DNA of 64,000 nt from Lutimonas saemankumensis (GTDB lineage Bacteria; Bacteroidota; Bacteroidia; Flavobacteriales; Flavobacteriaceae): NCBI RefSeq assembly GCF_020171465.1, contig NZ_JAIUZR010000001.1, positions 186,001 through 250,000 on the forward strand, read 5' to 3'. Below are positions 9,507-16,435 of this stretch, piece by piece (the first letter of the stretch is position 1; each line of letters opens with the position of its first letter). The position numbers were made by a program, and so were the translations under genes. The notes under the pieces are model-generated. The model saw nothing but the letters and a program-made list of their open reading frames with translations, was not told the DNA's origin and made no database searches.

Positions 9507-11234
9507 CTAGCCGTTCATTGACATTAAGAATTCCTCGTTATTATTGGTAAATTTAATTTTGTCTTTTACGAATTCCATGGCCTCGATTGGGTTCATGTCA
9601 GCCAGGTACTTTCTGAGAACCCAGATTCTTTGTCTTACCTTCTCTTCATGAAGAAGATCATCTCTACGGGTACTGGACTTAACAAGATCTATGGCAGGGT
9701 AGATTCTTCTGTTTGAAATATTGCGATCCAATTGCAGTTCCATGTTACCGGTTCCTTTAAATTCCTCAAAGATAACTTCATCCATTTTAGATCCTGTTTC
9801 TGTCAGGGCAGTTGCAATAATTGACAGGGATCCCCCATTTTCAATATTACGAGCCGCACCAAAAAATCTTTTGGGCTTGTGAAGTGCATTAGCGTCGATA
9901 CCACCGGAAAGGATTTTTCCAGAAGCAGGTGCAACAGTATTGTATGCTCTTGCAAGTCTGGTTATAGAATCCAGGAGTATAACCACGTCATGTCCACACT
10001 CAACCAATCTTTTGGCCTTTTCCAAAACGATGTTCGCCACTCTTACATGTTTCTCGGCAGATTCATCAAAAGTTGAGGCAATAACCTCTCCTGTTACATT
10101 ACGTTGCATGTCTGTTACTTCCTCTGGACGTTCGTCTATCAAAAGAACAATCTGATATACTTCCGGGTGATTCGCAGAAATGGCATTGGCGATATCTTTC
10201 AATAATATGGTCTTACCAGTTTTGGGTTGTGCAACAAGCATTCCACGCTGTCCTTTTCCTATAGGTGAAAATAAATCTATGATGCGAGTTGATAGATTGC
10301 TTCCCTTTTCAGCTAAATTAAATTTTTCTTCAGGGAAAAGAGGAGTTAAGTGCTCAAACGATACTCTGTCCCTGACTATACTCGGATTTAAACCGTTAAT
10401 AAGACTGACGCGAATTAGTGGAAAATATTTTTCACCTTCTTTAGGAGGCCTGACTTTTCCCTTTACCGTATCTCCTGTTTTAAGTCCAAAAAGCTTAATC
10501 TGAGACTGAGACACATAAATGTCATCAGGAGATGAAAGGTAGTTGTAGTCTGAAGACCTCAAAAACCCGTATCCATCCGGCATGATTTCCAGCACACCTT
10601 CACTTTCAATGATTCCGTCAAATTCAAAATCAGGATCTCTGTATTTACCAGGCTTGTTACTCTCATTGCCACGTTGTTTATGGCCTTGATTACCACGATT
10701 ATCTTTTCTCTGATCCTTCTGTGGATTTTTCTGATCTTTCTGATCCTTTTGCTGTGGCTGATGTTGTTTTCGCTGATCCTTTTGCTGAGCGTGATGTTGT
10801 TTTCTCTGATCTTTCTGCTGAGTGCGGTCAGTGGTTACCGATTGTTGCTCAGGATTCTGTGCAGAACCATTTTCTTTTTTGATTTGAGGTGTAACTTCAG
10901 ATTTTGGATGCTTTGTCTGTTTCACATCTCTTTTATCCATGTCTTTTTTTGAGGGAACGTCATTTTTTGATACAGTATCCGCAGGAGCCTTTTCAGATGC
11001 CGCCTCCTTTTTTGAAATTCTTTTTCTCTTCGGTTTGTTTACCGGAGAAGTATTTTCCTTAATCGGTGCGGTCTTTTCCTTCATCTGCTTTGGATTTGCA
11101 GCCTGCATATCCAGTATCTGATAAACCAAATCAAGTTTTTTAAGCTGACGAAATTTTGGAACATCAATTTTCTGAGCAATTTCCTGCAACTCCAAAAGTT
11201 TCATCTCTTTGAGTTTGTCTATGTCAAACATCAT
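9507..11234 (-). CDS. rho: Transcription termination factor Rho with disordered insertion
   Basis: A 575-residue Rho, about 150 residues longer than the E. coli protein. Residues 1-45 form the SAP-like Rho N-domain and about 205-285 the cold-shock-like RNA-binding domain ([20 protein letters not shown]). The ATPase has the P-loop PKTGKT near 337-342 and the [10 protein letters not shown] segment. The extra length is a hydrophilic, probably disordered insertion at about 47-200, rich in K, Q, D and N, with near repeats of QQKDQRKQH at about 139-166. Such insertions are characteristic of Bacteroidota Rho, and in Bacteroides have been linked to condensate formation. Two adjacent ATG codons (11234, 11231) could start it. 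It is divergent from the DUF4293 gene. Confidence 0.97.
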
Positions 11235-11434: not shown

Positions 11435-11878
11435 TTGAAGTCTATGTTGCAAAGAATACAAACGGTTTACTTGCTTCTGGCGGTCCTTCTCTCGGGAGGT
11501 CTGGCTTTTTTTCTTCCTTTTTGGAATGAAAGTGTTGGTGTACCGGTTAAACTTGCTGACATGTTGAATGGCGAAGACAATTTATTGAGAATAGTTCCGT
11601 TCCTGTTTATGGTTTCGGGAATTTTATCATTAGTGACACTTTTTTTATTTAAGAACAGAACCAGACAAATCATTTACAATAGGTTAAATATTGTAATCAA
11701 CTTTTTATTGTTAGGAATTGTTGTTTACCATCTGCTAATGTTATCTGGAGAAGCAAATGTTTCTGAGAAGGGTATTGGTGCAATCATACCTTTAGTTGTA
11801 ATAGTTTTATTGGCTCTTGCCAACAAAGCCATTATTAAGGATGATAAACTTGTAAAATCTGTAGATCGTTTACGATAA
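11435..11878 (+). CDS. DUF4293 family membrane protein
   Basis: A 147-residue protein with four predicted membrane helices (about 9-28, 48-68, 77-101 and 112-130). The N-terminus MLQRIQTVYLLLAVLLSGG is typical of the DUF4293 family, which in Flavobacteria commonly sits next to rho, as here. The function is unknown. It is divergent from rho with a 200-bp gap and is followed 27 bp later by a strong terminator, so it is a single-gene unit. Confidence 0.85.
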   Translation: MKSMLQRIQTVYLLLAVLLSGGLAFFLPFWNESVGVPVKLADMLNGEDNLLRIVPFLFMVSGILSLVTLFLFKNRTRQIIYNRLNIVINFLLLGIVVYHLLMLSGEANVSEKGIGAIIPLVVIVLLALANKAIIKDDKLVKSVDRLR

Positions 11879-11905
11879 TACTAATAACTTAGTTATAGTG
11901 TGTAT

Positions 11906-11940
11906 AAGCTGTCTGTATGAATATTCAGACAGCTTTTTTT
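11906..11940 (+). terminator. Terminator of the DUF4293 gene
   Basis: A 10-bp perfect stem AAGCTGTCTG / CAGACAGCTT with a 10-base loop, followed by a T run. It insulates the hairpin array downstream from read-through, so the array needs its own promoter. Confidence 0.93.
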
Positions 11941-11959
11941 CATTTTATTTTTCTCTAAC

Positions 11960-12027
11960 GGTTTTCAGGTAATTTTCAAAATCCCAAGTTCCTCTATTGT
12001 GTGAAACGTTAACTGCCCATATATTTG
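11960..12027 (+). promoter_or_regulatory. Promoter P1 of the hairpin array, with upstream box
   Basis: TTG at 11997-11999, a 20-base spacer and TATATTTG at 12020-12027 match the Bacteroidota promoter consensus, so transcription should start near 12034. An upstream box GGTTTTCAGGTA (11960-11971) begins 37 bases before the TTG. The same box sits at the same distance in promoter P2 of the secreted-protein gene (13302). By my count 46 of 68 ungapped aligned positions agree between the two. This suggests a common activator or repressor; the nearby response regulator is a candidate. Confidence 0.8.
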
Positions 12028-12058
12028 TAGTGTAATTATTCAAGTAATAGTTGCTGTT

Positions 12059-12121
12059 ATGAAAAAACAGCCTTTGAAAAAAGGCATAAGGGGGGAAAGG
12101 AGAGAAGATCACTTTCGCTGA
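12059..12121 (+). CDS. Possible 20-residue leader peptide at the head of the array
   Basis: An ATG about 25 bases after the predicted start of the array transcript opens a 20-codon frame rich in Lys and Arg (MKKQPLKKGIR then GERREDHFR), ending at TGA 12121. It runs through hairpin A and the 5' arm of hairpin B of the first unit, so its translation would disturb the RNA fold. No homologue is recognised and such a short frame can occur by chance. Confidence 0.25.
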   Translation: MKKQPLKKGIRGERREDHFR

Positions 12122-12150
12122 AAAGAAAAAAGGACTTCTCTCCTTAATTT
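12070..12150 (+). ncRNA. Array unit 1 (divergent, shortest loop)
   Basis: Hairpin A is GCCTTT-GAAA-AAAGGC (12070-12085). The core stem pairs 12097-12107 with 12135-12145 around a 27-base loop. It lacks the GTGAAGC sequence that follows the 5' arm in the other units and ends in TTAATTT, not TACTATTTTT. It is the unit nearest to promoter P1. Confidence 0.55.
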
Positions 12151-12224
12151 AACTCCGGGAATAAATTGCTATGAATTCCAAAATTGACATTTTGAAAAAT
12201 TAATATTCTCGAACTGGGAAGGTA

Positions 12225-12354
12225 ATAAGAACATATTCTTATATATCAAATATTTTGCATTAGATGTAAATAAAAAAAAGGGGAGAAAGGAGAGAAGTGA
12301 AGCGCCATGATTCTTTCATTAAAAAAACAAATTGCTTCTCTCCTTACTATTTTT
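12225..12354 (+). ncRNA. Array unit 2
   Basis: Hairpin A is ATAAGAA-CATA-TTCTTAT (12225-12242), set further upstream than in other units. The core stem pairs 12287-12297 with 12335-12345 around 37 bases, followed by TACTATTTTT. The frame from GTG 12297 does not stop early, giving a chance 67-codon frame. The spacers before units 2 and 3 share an element AATTCCAAAATTGACAT, ending near 12190 and 12394. Confidence 0.6.
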
Positions 12355-12452
12355 CAAAAAGTGGGAAAATTGCTAAAAATTCCAAAATTGACATACTGAC
12401 ATCAAATTTCTCAGAGAAATGGATTATAAAGATCAAACTTTATAAAAAATTA

Positions 12453-12561
12453 CTCCTTATGACTAAGGAGAAGAAGACAGGGGAGAAAGGAGAGAAGTGA
12501 AGCAAATTGTTCTCTAATACTAAGACTAAAATAAAATAGCTTCTCTCCTTACTATTTTTTT
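12453..12561 (+). ncRNA. Array unit 3
   Basis: Hairpin A is CTCCTTA-TGAC-TAAGGAG (12453-12470). The core stem pairs 12487-12497 with 12540-12550 around 42 bases and ends in a T run. A six-codon frame GTG-AAG-CAA-ATT-GTT-CTC-TAA starts at 12497, directly behind AAGGAGAG. About 83 bases from ACAGGGGAG onward match unit 5 with a single C/T difference. Confidence 0.65.
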
Positions 12562-12627
12562 CTGTTCAATAAATGGACCATTTCAGCGAGGCAAGGATCG
12601 GATTTTAATCAGATCGATAAAAAAGTA

Positions 12628-12736
12628 CTCCTTATTTGCATAGGGAGAAGAAGAGAGGGGAGAAAGGAGAGAAGTGAAGCATATTGTTTTCTAACACTAA
12701 TAACAAATACAAATAGCTTCTCTCCTTACTATTTTT
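12628..12736 (+). ncRNA. Array unit 4
   Basis: Hairpin A is CTCCTTAT-TTGC-ATAGGGAG (12628-12647), seven Watson-Crick pairs and one wobble. The core stem pairs 12664-12674 with 12717-12727 around 42 bases, followed by TACTATTTTT. The short frame from GTG 12674 reads MKHIVF then TAA. Confidence 0.65.
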
Positions 12737-12798
12737 AACATAGAGATTTTCTCATCGATTCAAAAAAAGATTTAAAAGTGAAAAAGTTGTAAAATATA

Positions 12799-12911
12799 CT
12801 CCTGTAACAAGAATACCAGGAGAGTAAGACAGGGGAGAAAGGAGAGAAGTGAAGCAAATTGTTTTCTAATACTAAGACTAAAATAAAATAGCTTCTCTCC
12901 TTACTATTTTT
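12799..12911 (+). ncRNA. Array unit 5
   Basis: Hairpin A is CTCCTG / CAGGAG (12799-12804 with 12817-12822), a changed sequence that preserves pairing compared with units 3 and 4. The core stem pairs 12839-12849 with 12892-12902 around 42 bases, then TACTATTTTT. The short frame from GTG 12849 reads MKQIVF then TAA. Confidence 0.65.
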
Positions 12912-12952
12912 CAAAAAAAAATACTCAAATCTTGGGAACTTGAGTATTTCTT

Positions 12953-13055
12953 AAGAAGATAAAGAATATCTTCTTTTAAAAGGGGAAAAAGGAAAGGGAG
13001 TTAGGAGAGAAGTGAAACAAGCTTTCTAATAAACAAATAACCTCTCTCCTTACTA
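12953..13055 (+). ncRNA. Array unit 6 (divergent, shortened core stem)
   Basis: Two stems precede it: AAATACTCAA / TTGAGTATTT (12919-12949) and AAGAAGATA-AAGAA-TATCTTCTT (12953-12975). The core stem is reduced to AGGAGAGA / TCTCTCCT (13003-13010 with 13043-13050). The short frame GTG-AAA-CAA-GCT-TTC-TAA is at 13012-13029. The tail is TACTATAAAT, without a T run, so the end of the transcript is unclear. Confidence 0.55.
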
Positions 13056-13301
13056 TAAATATTTCAACTATTGAAATTAAATCCAATTCTAACGAATATG
13101 CAAGATAGAAAAAGAAAATTAAATTATCAAATAAAGTCTACAGAATAAGTAGGTGTTAAAATCATAAACAGTATAAAATCAACAACTTACATTATTAATT
13201 TAAAGCATTAAAATGGTATAAACTTCAGAAAAAAAACATAATAGTAAATTTTTTATATCTTTCGAAACACCAAATTAGTGGTTTCTGGGTATAAACCTCA
13301 T
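13056..13301 (+). other. AT-rich gap between array and promoter P2
   Basis: No open frame or RNA gene is supported here. The only structure seen is an imperfect palindrome GGTTT-N8-AAACC at 13280-13297, just upstream of the P2 box, which may be a regulator site. Confidence 0.5.
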
Positions 13302-13369
13302 GGTTTTCAGGTAGTACAAAAAATACCTGATTTCGCTATTGGTTTGTAACTCATTTGCCGATACATTTG
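13302..13369 (+). promoter_or_regulatory. Promoter P2 of the secreted-protein gene, with palindromic operator
   Basis: TTG at 13339-13341, a 20-base spacer and TACATTTG at 13362-13369 form a good Bacteroidota promoter, giving a leader of about 55 bases before ATG 13433. Upstream lies a perfect inverted repeat TCAGGTA-N10-TACCTGA (13307-13330), whose left half is inside the box GGTTTTCAGGTA shared with P1. In P1 only the left half-site is intact. Confidence 0.8.
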
Positions 13370-13432
13370 GTGTATTAGCTTGTTATAGCTGATAAAAACA
13401 TACATACAGAACAAATCTAAAAGTTTATTATT

Positions 13433-13840
13433 ATGAAAAATTTTACTATTGCAATTGCCGTATTGTTGGTTATGGCTTCTTTTACTACCAACTTAACTAA
13501 CTCATCTTCAGCGGTTTTGTCAGATTACGAAGGAACTTTATTGGAATCTGCGCCGATTATGGAGAACAATGATGGAGAAGTTTCAGTAACATTTACAGTT
13601 GATCAAAATGTTATGGTTTCATCTGCTTTAATTGGTGCTTCTAATGAAATCTTTTTAGTGGAAAATGGTGATTCGAACTCATCGAAAACCGTGACTCTTG
13701 ATCTTCAGCCAGTTGATGGCAAGGTAACCACAGCGTTTAACAACATTTATGAAGACAACTATGATGTTGCAGCTATGGACGCTTTGTTGAACAGAACTGA
13801 GCCTGAAAGAAGACCTAAAGGTGTCATTATCTGGGAGTAA
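13433..13840 (+). CDS. Small secreted protein of unknown function
   Basis: A 135-residue protein with a clear signal peptide (MKNFTIAIAVLLVMASFTTN, cleavage probably near residues 25-28). The mature part of about 108 residues is acidic and has beta-type alternating segments (GEVSVTFTVDQNVMVSSALI). It ends in a basic patch and a hydrophobic tail (ERRPKGVIIWE). It has no cysteine and no recognised domain. It lies 57 bp downstream of its predicted transcription start and 107 bp before the response regulator, with a terminator between. Its shared promoter box with the hairpin array suggests that both belong to one response. Function is unknown. Confidence 0.8.
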   Translation: MKNFTIAIAVLLVMASFTTNLTNSSSAVLSDYEGTLLESAPIMENNDGEVSVTFTVDQNVMVSSALIGASNEIFLVENGDSNSSKTVTLDLQPVDGKVTTAFNNIYEDNYDVAAMDALLNRTEPERRPKGVIIWE

Positions 13841-13947: not shown

Positions 13948-14616
13948 ATGTATCATATGGATAAGATTATTACTGTACATATTGCCGATGATCATCAAAT
14001 TTTGATTGATGGTGTGAAAGCCGTTCTAGGACTTGAGCCAAATATTGAAGTCACAGGCTTCTCATTAAATGGCAAAGAGGTTGTTTCATGGTATGAAGAA
14101 AATAATTCTGACGTGCTTGTTTTGGATATTAATATGCCGGAACTAGACGGGATTGAAGTCCTTAAACATTTGAGGCAGAACAAAAACAAACCTGAAATCA
14201 TTGTTCTTTCCAGTTATGACGACGTAAAACTTGTAAAAGAAGTTTTACAGATGGGAGCAAAGGGCTTTGTGCCAAAAAAGTCGGCTGGTGAACACATTGT
14301 CAATGCGGTTAGAAAAGTTTCCGAAGGGAATCAGTATTTTACAGATGATATCAAGGAAAAAATGATGCAGACCTTGCTCACGGGCCAGGTCAAAAATGAG
14401 GGAAGCCAGGATGGGGTTCTGATAAGCTCATTAACTAAAAGAGAAGTACAGGTTTTAAAACTTGTGGCCCAACAGTACAGTACGCGAGAAATTGGCGATG
14501 AACTGCATATAAGTGAAAGTACTGTTGAAACACATAGAAAGAATCTAATGAAAAAGGTCAAGGTCAAAAATAGTGTTGGACTTGCTATATTTGCCTTAAA
14601 GAATGAGGTCATATAA
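13948..14616 (+). CDS. Response regulator, NarL/FixJ (LuxR-type HTH) family
   Basis: A 222-residue regulator. The receiver domain has the acidic pair ADDHQ, the phospho-acceptor Asp60 in VLVLDINMPELDG, a Ser in LSSYDD and the Lys in GFVPKK. The C-terminal DNA-binding domain is a GerE/LuxR helix-turn-helix (LTKREVQVLKLVAQ and then ISESTVETHRKNLMKK). The partner is the histidine kinase that follows. An alternative start is ATG 13957 (MDKIITVHIADDH), which looks equally good. Candidate targets are the boxes at promoters P1 and P2, which is inference. Confidence 0.93.
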   Translation: MYHMDKIITVHIADDHQILIDGVKAVLGLEPNIEVTGFSLNGKEVVSWYEENNSDVLVLDINMPELDGIEVLKHLRQNKNKPEIIVLSSYDDVKLVKEVLQMGAKGFVPKKSAGEHIVNAVRKVSEGNQYFTDDIKEKMMQTLLTGQVKNEGSQDGVLISSLTKREVQVLKLVAQQYSTREIGDELHISESTVETHRKNLMKKVKVKNSVGLAIFALKNEVI

Positions 14617-14644
14617 CTTTATTTTGAGTCTTTTAAGAGGCTTG

Positions 14645-16435
14645 ATGAAAAACTTTTTGCCAATTGCAATACTTTTGATTGGTGGTGAGCTCTATTCTCA
14701 AAATTCTTCAAAAGAGGAAATCTATATTCAGGAAAAACTTGCGCAAATTGACTCACTTATCAAAATAGGAGAGTTTGAAAAGGCGGATTACACCATTGAG
14801 AATACGCTAAATACCTTTTCCTTCGCAAAGAATTCAGAAAAACAACTCGCTTTTGAATTTAGGAAGGCCAAAAACTATTACCAGCAGGGGATAAGCGAAA
14901 AGGCCATGGAAATCTTGTTAAATGGTTTAGACCGATTAAAAGGAAGGACCTTTTCAAGTTTAAATATTGATTATTCGAATTTGCTGGCAAGGATCTTTGC
15001 TGATTCTCAGAATTTTGATAAGGCTATATATTACAACAAAATTTCCTTGCAGAAGGCAAACTTAATTAAAGATACTATTGGTATAACCAAAGCGCTAATC
15101 AGGCTCGGAAGTTTTTATTATGCAAAAAATGAGCAGGATAGTGCCAAACATTTCTTTAGAAAGGTGACCTACTTCCCAGTCACTCCGAAAACTGAAATAA
15201 GAATATCAAATGCTTACAATAATCTTGGTGTTATTGCCCAGAATAATGATAATTTGCCTTTGGCAAAACATTGGGCAAGAGAAGCACTTAAGTTGAAAAT
15301 GAAACAGAACAGTGTCGTTGATATTGCATCGGCCAATGTTAATCTTGGAAACCTTCATCATTTTGAAAAGGAATATGAAAAAGCGATCAATAGATATTTG
15401 GAAGCATTCAACAACATTGAACTGGATACAACGACTCGTGTACTGCATTTGAAACGAATTATTTATGAAAATCTTTCCGTGTCCTATGATTCTATTGATG
15501 ATTATCAAAATGCGTATAAATATTTACATAAATCCTATGAACTGAAGTTCAGGCTTACCAATGAACAATTAGCTGAAAATATTGCTGGTGTTGAGGCTAA
15601 GTACAATCTGGCTTTGGAAGAGAAGAGAACGGAAGAAGAAAAAGGTAGAGCTCTAAGAGCTCAGGTACTCTTTTACGGAATGGCCTTTTTGACCTTGATT
15701 CTTGTTGTTATTGCCTTTATTTTTTACAAGAATTATAAATTGAAACAGCAGACTAAGCTTGATCAGATCCACAGTAACCTACAGACCAGAATAATTAATG
15801 CAACGATTGATGCGAAAGAGAAAGAACGTAAATCTATTGCGGAAATTCTCCATGACAGCGTAAGTGCCTTATTGTCTTCAGCAAATCTGCACCTCCAGGC
15901 TTCAAAGTCACAGTTGAACTCACATGTTCCGATAGAGATTTCAAAAGCTCAGGAAATTGTAAATGAAGCTTCAATCAAGATAAGAGATCTTTCACATGAG
16001 CTGATTTCATCAGTATTGCTCAAATTCGGACTGGCTTTTGCAGTACATGACCTTTGCGAAAAATACTCCAATTCAGAAATTCAGTTTATTAGTGATGATA
16101 ATGGCATCAAAAGATATAATCAGGATTTTGAGATCAAAATATACAACATCATTGAAGAGTTGATCAATAATATTTTAAAGCATAGTAAAGCAAAGAATGC
16201 CACAATCAATCTTATCGAAAGAAATGGAGATAAATTGATAATACAGATTATTGATGACGGAAAAGGATTTGACGTCAAGAAAGCGGTCAAAAAGGATGGA
16301 CTTGGCTTAAATCATATTGAAGCAAGAATTAAGATAATGAAAGGAGTTTTCAATATAAATTCAAAAGAAGGAGAAGGAACCAGTATTTTTATTTCTGTTC
16401 CTATTTTCCAGACTGAACCGGTGGAAGCCGTTTAA
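14645..16435 (+). CDS. Sensor histidine kinase with periplasmic TPR repeats (HisKA_3 / NarX type)
   Basis: From ATG 14645 this is 596 residues with a signal peptide (MKNFLPIAILLIGGELYS). Residues about 30-310 are TPR-like helical repeats facing the periplasm, followed by a transmembrane helix near 332-352 (FYGMAFLTLILVVIAFIFYK). The dimerisation domain has the phospho-acceptor His403 in AEILHDSVSALL. The ATPase shows the N-box EELINNILKHSKA and the glycine boxes DDGKGFD and GLGLNHI. An in-frame ATG at 14603 overlaps the regulator gene by 14 bases but would place a long segment before the signal peptide. TPR kinases of this kind are common in Bacteroidota; their signals are mostly unknown. Confidence 0.92.
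   Translation: MKNFLPIAILLIGGELYSQNSSKEEIYIQEKLAQIDSLIKIGEFEKADYTIENTLNTFSFAKNSEKQLAFEFRKAKNYYQQGISEKAMEILLNGLDRLKGRTFSSLNIDYSNLLARIFADSQNFDKAIYYNKISLQKANLIKDTIGITKALIRLGSFYYAKNEQDSAKHFFRKVTYFPVTPKTEIRISNAYNNLGVIAQNNDNLPLAKHWAREALKLKMKQNSVVDIASANVNLGNLHHFEKEYEKAINRYLEAFNNIELDTTTRVLHLKRIIYENLSVSYDSIDDYQNAYKYLHKSYELKFRLTNEQLAENIAGVEAKYNLALEEKRTEEEKGRALRAQVLFYGMAFLTLILVVIAFIFYKNYKLKQQTKLDQIHSNLQTRIINATIDAKEKERKSIAEILHDSVSALLSSANLHLQASKSQLNSHVPIEISKAQEIVNEASIKIRDLSHELISSVLLKFGLAFAVHDLCEKYSNSEIQFISDDNGIKRYNQDFEIKIYNIIEELINNILKHSKAKNATINLIERNGDKLIIQIIDDGKGFDVKKAVKKDGLGLNHIEARIKIMKGVFNINSKEGEGTSIFISVPIFQTEPVEAV

Follow-up and report, generated by a model that had tools for sequence, protein, structure and literature searches.

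We describe here a tandem array of six hairpin units on the plus strand of Lutimonas saemankumensis DNA (positions 12059-13060 of a 64,000-nucleotide stretch, hereafter the window), which is well supported as a new RNA family of some Flavobacteriaceae—structured, and placed on a shared promoter block. The array is probably a structured, non-coding RNA gene with its own promoter, as the initial annotation of this DNA had proposed; this is supported by the conservation of stem and promoter, G.U wobbles on the plus strand, compensation in stem A, and the absence of a conserved reading frame. What sequence comparison shows is the RNA family with its strand and structure, the conservation of the promoter, and the shared block. 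As for function, we consider it about an even chance that this is a two-component-controlled repeat RNA gene within a small regulon, which would titrate a partner through a purine block.

The units lie 190, 200, 177, 175, and 163 bp apart, in agreement with the 163-200 bp first reported. A typical unit runs from a variable hairpin A through a purine tract ending in GGGGAGAAAGG to the core stem and its loop, and then to ACTAT plus A/T. The core stem pairs AAGGAGAGAAG with CTTCTCTCCTT around loops of 27, 37, 42, 42, 42, and 28 nt in units 1 to 6; the conserved core with its 27-42 base loops is as claimed, with unit 6 deviating by its start, TAGGAGAG, and by one A.C mismatch in the stem. This last-unit form also ends most arrays of the genus at the chromosomal place we call type I (described below). 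Two features had been drawn too broadly: stem A, thought to occur in every unit, can be recognised clearly in four (1, 3, 4, and 5), whereas unit 2 has a weak form and unit 6 one of different sequence; and the T-rich tails, present in the window in units 2-5, are so often lost in relatives that they are not a conserved terminator. When single units were folded and compared with shuffles, units 1-5 gave z-scores of -3.42, -2.16, -3.26, -3.06, and -2.70, and unit 6 was unremarkable (z -0.81; 41 of 200 shuffles equally good). Right behind unit 6 lies a short hairpin, ATTTCAACTATTGAAAT (window 13060-13085), without a T-run and kept in most type I arrays of the genus. In some species the middle units are near-identical and the first and last units distinct (L055:9936-11059, L108:4759-5325), as expected from local duplication or gene conversion. 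The coordinates of the features are collected in Table 1.

Table 1. Features of the array and its surroundings (window positions unless a locus is named).
Feature	Position	Strand	Details
Intrinsic terminator of DUF4293 gene	11907..11940	+	separates the DUF4293 gene from the array
Upstream site and promoter of array	11960..12027	+	GGTTTT..GGTA..AAAATCCC, CTATTG (-33), TATATTTG (-7)
Unit 1	12085-12154, with stem A from 12070	+	first-unit form GGGGGGAAAGG; stem A 12070-12085; core arms 12097-12107, 12135-12145
Unit 2	12275-12354	+	core arms 12287-12297, 12335-12345; stem A weak
Unit 3	12475-12559, with stem A from 12453	+	stem A 12453-12470; core arms 12487-12497, 12540-12550
Unit 4	12652-12736, with stem A from 12628	+	stem A 12628-12647; core arms 12664-12674, 12717-12727
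Unit 5	12827-12911, with stem A from 12799	+	stem A 12799-12822; core arms 12839-12849, 12892-12902
Unit 6	12990-13060	+	last-unit form AAAGGGAGTTAGGAGAGAAG; core arms 13002-13012, 13041-13051
Secreted-protein-gene promoter	13302..13369	+	shares the 68-bp architecture of the array promoter
Small secreted protein, 135 aa	13433..13840	+	signal-peptide-like start; no Pfam/NCBIfam family
NarL/LuxR-type response regulator, candidate activator	13948..14616	+	Response_reg + GerE
TPR sensor histidine kinase	14603..16435	+	HisKA_3, HATPase_c
Twin tandem RNA-like genes	L221:1940-2620	-	own terminators, covarying hairpin, identical 14-nt complementary block
Twin tandem RNA-like genes	L222:1400-2080		as above

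A chance pattern is excluded, because matches at E 2e-5 or better in a BLAST search of the own genome with two units are confined to the array (the next best elsewhere has E 0.27) and because the same arrays recur in relatives. The same confinement dismisses dispersed REP-like DNA repeats, and a mobile element was set aside after phages and plasmids gave no match to window 12260-13060. BLAST found a match in 14 of the 22 genomes of the window genus; a covariance model built from 57 units (R1) placed units on the matching contigs of 12 and none, at E 1, on those of G013 and G017. These 12 include all six genus genomes with completeness of at least 90% and contamination of at most 5%, and the ten without units are only 61-84% complete, so their absence says little. 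Among 397 family genomes, scanned with strict filters that may miss weak relatives, R1 matched strongly (best E 2.1e-9 or lower) in six, which belong to three genera. Weak matches also arose in G245 (E 6e-4) and G394 (E 0.008) but were rejected on inspection; since the E-values are per genome, a scan of 397 genomes should yield about four matches at E 0.01 by chance. The initial annotation had suggested such a covariance search, and arrays were indeed found beside the same two-component genes, within one clade.

A pattern scan of genome contigs returned 41: 23 from Bacteroidota, 16 from archaea, one from Ignavibacteriae, and one from Microbacterium. The Bacteroidota include Aureibaculum luteum (5 matches), A. 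flavum (4), and A. marinum (2). The archaeal matches (15 Bathyarchaeota, one other) are single and reach at most 31 bits with R1; the 23-base purine pattern of the Bathyarchaeota contigs (L106, L111, L114, L116, L117, L118, L122, L124, L131, L132, L133, L136, L138, L141, and L145) is probably a coding chance. Arrays hold 2-7 units across relatives, a count that rests on 107 units at 32 loci, some loci coming from one genome. Partial units at contig ends (L059 14085, L134 1-72, L113 3211) and L134 311-389 (E 7e-6) stand outside the 107.

The strand and fold of the RNA can be read from the substitutions in the core stem. In the 99 of 107 units whose arms were parsed by pattern, 56 wobble cells are G.U and 8 are A.C; an alignment of 57 type I units (A2) has 18 G.U and 7 A.C, many of the core-stem changes being common by descent. 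Alignment A5, with two misaligned rows, was left out of the pair counts. A G.U on the plus strand would read A.C on the opposite strand, and hence these comparisons indicate that the plus strand is the RNA. The core stem is otherwise nearly invariant, with double-sided change in 2 of its 11 pairs, and such scarce covariation points to sequence recognition as well.

Hairpin A, in contrast to the core stem, does covary in these comparisons, and the claim that its pairing is kept under sequence change stands. At the unit-1 position it is present in 11 of 13 type I loci (L057 and L058 lack it), with both arms changing together—GCCTTT/AAAGGC, ACCTTT/AAAGGT, ATCCTT/AAGGAT, ATTCTTG/CAAGAAT—where the arms were chosen with patterns derived from folds. 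The arms likewise change together, by eye, in the second units of four type II loci (L115, L129, L137, L123). Over 107 upstream segments the mean z is -1.12, with 54 below -1 and 24 below -2; these scores come from related units, and we give no p-value.

Our searches turned up no named element of this form, in line with what had been supposed. A tRNA elsewhere in the window is the only feature there that reaches the gathering score of a family in Rfam release 15, and a permissive scan of 11850-13450 gave at best Yfr10, on the minus strand (12906-12974), whose 36.5 bits fall short of the cut-off of 43. Flavo-1 (RF01705), the comparison first proposed, and 6S-flavo (RF01685) are structured RNAs that PMC2864571 assigns to Bacteroidetes; the array is likewise a structured RNA of Bacteroidota, but neither family reached gathering score, whether in the window or at ten related loci. 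A limited literature search, with most subscription journals outside its scope, found no published description of a tandem hairpin RNA family of this kind.

There are two main chromosomal places for the arrays. Type I (15 loci; the window genus, the genus of G166, and contig L135) has the order rho(-), DUF4293(+), array(+), small secreted protein(+), response regulator, and kinase, although contig ends cut some of the loci, so that 13 of 15 show the left side and 12 of 15 the secreted protein. In the window, the rho gene contains short tandem repeats where a Q/K-rich linker is encoded (10703-10822). Type II (Aureibaculum and others) has mnmE on the left, then a DUF4870 gene in 10 of 15 loci, the array, and a convergent miaE in 12 of 15; these neighbour families were named by Pfam for L102 only. 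As type II arrays end against a convergent gene, the array is independent of the gene after it. The array of L112 has a different neighbour gene and may occupy a third place. Aureibaculum retains the secreted protein, regulator, and kinase at its type I place together with one degenerate unit, and so the array has probably moved or been copied. Of 299 family genomes, 5 encode the secreted protein (alignment A4), and the RNA is present in every one of them; since protein and RNA stem from a single clade, this co-occurrence reflects shared history and not independent gain. The response regulator is nearest to the MctR, NarL, and GacA-type NCBIfam models, under the cut-off of each model shown.

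The region upstream of the array is conserved as a block, GGTTTTCGGGTA..AAAATCCC..CTATTG..TATATTTG, and transcription in the window would be expected to start near 12034. Both the promoter ahead of the array and the terminator insulating it from the preceding gene had been predicted; both are present and conserved over 13 type I loci, the sides of the terminator stem co-varying and its T-run kept. From GG to TTTG the block measures 68 bp in 23 of 26 type I candidates—13 of 13 array promoters and 10 of 13 secreted-protein-gene promoters—with a filter that fixes the start relative to CTATTG and leaves the CTATTG-TTTG distance free up to 36 nt. Among these candidates L049 fails the filter by its first base, and L054 and L059 are one base longer. 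A sequence profile of the block (R2) finds a third, more diverged site in four genomes (G001:C8:628353, G021:C1:1984574, G166:C234:6789, and G000:C3:1037632; E 8e-9 to 3e-7), preceding a distant operon that encodes small proteins with signal-peptide-like starts, the final one carrying DUF2911. Aureibaculum array promoters match R2 more weakly (E 1.1e-7, 8.6e-5); matches at G000:C4:781422 (E 3.9e-4) and G021:C1:2281048 (E 7.7e-5) have no ORF in common and were not counted. In the G000:C3 operon (L179:5161-7407, minus strand), which has an array-type promoter block, several secreted-like proteins have VTTFPNGEEAITI in common; this operon is conserved in G021 and G001, and partly in G166.

The 68-bp block and its reuse before the secreted-protein gene and the operon appear to be new here. 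Judging from position, the array promoter most likely belongs to a small regulon of the adjacent NarL/LuxR-type regulator, along with the secreted-protein genes, and the regulator itself would bind the sites in the block.

How might such a gene act? Among the three roles first put forward—sponge, sibling RNAs, and ribosome decoy—we favour the sponge, which the array may well be. The gene would consist of a single promoter followed by 2-7 tandem, non-coding hairpin units, so that when the two-component system fires several copies of the purine block would be produced at once; these would bind and titrate a partner, either a pyrimidine-rich RNA, which would enter at GGGGAGA and open the stem, or an RNA-binding protein. 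Here we infer transcription, control by the regulator, titration, and the partner. The purine block, GGGGAGAAAGGAG, and the stem are the most conserved part of the unit, above the loop. The 5' half of the block lies outside the core stem and its 3' half forms the stem; GGGGAGA, on the outside, pairs with the T-rich tail in some single-unit folds. The block is intact in 79 of 107 units, namely 40 of 68 type I and 39 of 39 type II, where the pattern by which most type II contigs were retrieved includes the block, although this does not apply to every unit.

A more specific form of the sponge, which we hold tentatively and judge rather improbable, is strand displacement—GGGGAGA would be the toehold, the partner RNA would be specific to each lineage, and titration would be under two-component control without CsrA. 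A pyrimidine-rich partner would enter at GGGGAGA and then open the core stem. Candidate partners would be twin structured RNAs with UCUCCUUUCUCCCC in Aureibaculum and a terminator loop with CUCCUUUCUCCCC in another genus, with a different one in the window genus. These come from a search of six genomes for the complement, CTCCTTTCTCC, in which the reversed 11-mer control gave 0-2 copies per genome. In Aureibaculum (G333, G139) the complement lies in arrays, in the degenerate unit, and also, in each of the two genomes, in two tandem intergenic RNA-like genes that carry TCTCCTTTCTCCCC, identical in 4 of 4 copies within diverged sequence. Two of these genes, when folded, gave z-scores of -3.25 and -3.42 and matched no Rfam family. 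The gene beside the twin RNAs had no match at E 1e-20 in six other genomes and so gave no lead to a partner in the window genus. G166 has a coding copy (L223) and another in a terminator-like hairpin (L224:1490-1535) with a 12-bp stem and a 19-nt loop; the loop carries CCTCCTTTCTCCCC, the exact complement of the purine block, and the hairpin sits after a 216-aa ORF without a Pfam family. Exact complements of 13-14 nt thus occur in hairpin RNA elements of three genomes, from two genera outside the window genus, against 0.003-0.006 copies of a 13- or 14-mer expected per genome by base composition. The complement was noticed post hoc and the strand of the twin genes was deduced from a terminal hairpin and T-run, so the match supports the partner hypothesis and does not prove it.

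Several observations count against the sponge. In three genomes of the window's own genus, exact 11-mer complements outside the arrays always fall within an open frame (6 of 6 places). Half of the purine block is buried in a strong stem, and its exact form is missing from 28 of 68 type I units, the first and last forms among them. Additionally, the core stem scarcely covaries, and the L224 hairpin is of ordinary stability (z -1.66; 12 of 200 shuffles equally good).

A close parallel is found in CsrB/CsrC and RsmY/RsmZ, sponge RNAs under the control of GacA/UvrY whose GGA motifs are exposed in hairpin loops. Like these, the array is a repeat-rich structured RNA with many GGA motifs; it has a conserved upstream block, through which the adjacent NarL/GacA-type regulator would probably control it. 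However, the GGA motifs of the array are found in its purine tract and on the 5' side of the core stem rather than in hairpin loops, and its units are clean tandem repeats built on an 11-bp stem that hardly varies. A sponge for CsrA itself was rejected: CsrA (PF02599) was found in 0 of 6 genomes, with a control search positive in 3 of 14 named genomes, including E. coli.

Other comparisons are with multicopy small RNAs. As described in PMC11697453, FopS of Bacteroides has 14 paralogs of about 65-70 nt—intergenic, antisense, or 3'-UTR-derived—with their own promoters; like FopS with RbpB, the array is a multicopy RNA of Bacteroidota that could have an RNA-binding-protein partner. By that description FopS is a set of separate genes, in contrast to the one array behind one promoter block found here. 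Tandem siblings such as PrrF1/PrrF2, OmrA/OmrB, and AbcR1/AbcR2, discussed together with CsrB in PMC4211561, are adjacent and related as our units are, and PrrF1-PrrF2 can be read through into a single RNA (PMC4211561). Those pairs, as presented there, have two copies; the arrays have 2-7, with no conserved terminator per unit.

The sibling reading itself is possible, if unlikely: the A/U-rich loop (GUGAAGCAAAUUGUUUUCUAA..) would base-pair with mRNAs, and the copies would provide dose, in the manner of FopS or Qrr. The loop is long and open, its 5' part (GTGAAGC/GTGAAAC) is fairly conserved, and multicopy small RNAs of this kind are known in Bacteroides (PMC11697453); it is the purine block and stem, however, and not the loop, that are most conserved. 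Furthermore, in 30 unit-target tests with six nearby mRNA starts no loop pairing with co-regulated genes stood out; the lowest shuffle counts, 1-4 per 100, came from units 3 and 5, which have almost the same loop, against the DUF4293 and kinase starts.

A ribosome decoy is possible but weak, and we find it improbable. In this proposal AGAAAGGAG, complementary to CUCCUUUCU in the 3' tail of 16S rRNA, could hold 30S subunits lacking bS21. The complement to the 16S end is 9 nt in the same-genus genome G021, used because the 16S of the own genome was not found; and PMC9976891, which treats bS21-dependent control of rpsU in Flavobacteriales, describes this tail as freed where bS21 is lacking. The own rpsU, however, uses another register, AAAGGAGGTG, the invariant GGGG and the 3' arm are left unexplained, and half of the site is buried in the stem. 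By itself the 9-mer is only mildly enriched in the window, with 4 copies against 0.94 expected and one in 100 shuffles reaching 4.

It is very improbable that the array is a DNA element, with protein-binding or recombination repeats and no RNA role. Tandem inverted repeats of polypurine DNA would fit, as would near-identical middle units arising by local duplication; such an element sits poorly with a constant upstream promoter, the G.U/A.C asymmetry, a covarying hairpin A, and the absence of scattered copies from the own genome. A cis-acting leader of the secreted-protein gene is more doubtful still—that gene lies about 350-375 bp downstream in type I loci, but a conserved promoter of its own precedes it, and 12 of 15 type II loci have miaE, on the opposite strand, as the gene that follows the array. 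Scarcely credible is a series of micro-ORFs (GGAG, then GTG-AAG-CAA-..-TAA): they are legible by eye in window units 3-5, but the frame of unit 2 has no stop and runs on (67 aa), GTG is missing in G010.2 and G012.2-3, and the G002 units stop, by eye, at the third codon. Coding peptides were rejected, with start, frame, and stop all unconserved, as was a series of intrinsic terminators (stem, then ACTAT/CTAT plus A/T), many units lacking a T-run.

One transcriptome paper calls the Flavobacteriaceae understudied (PMC9723704). The array is present in cultured, named Aureibaculum species, making direct testing possible; the range of 2-7 copies among relatives is a natural dosage experiment, and the candidate partner RNAs make a base-pairing sponge falsifiable by single mutations. 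With a repeat RNA sharing the promoter block of an apparent two-component regulon, the system would amount to a Gac/Csr-like circuit built from other parts.
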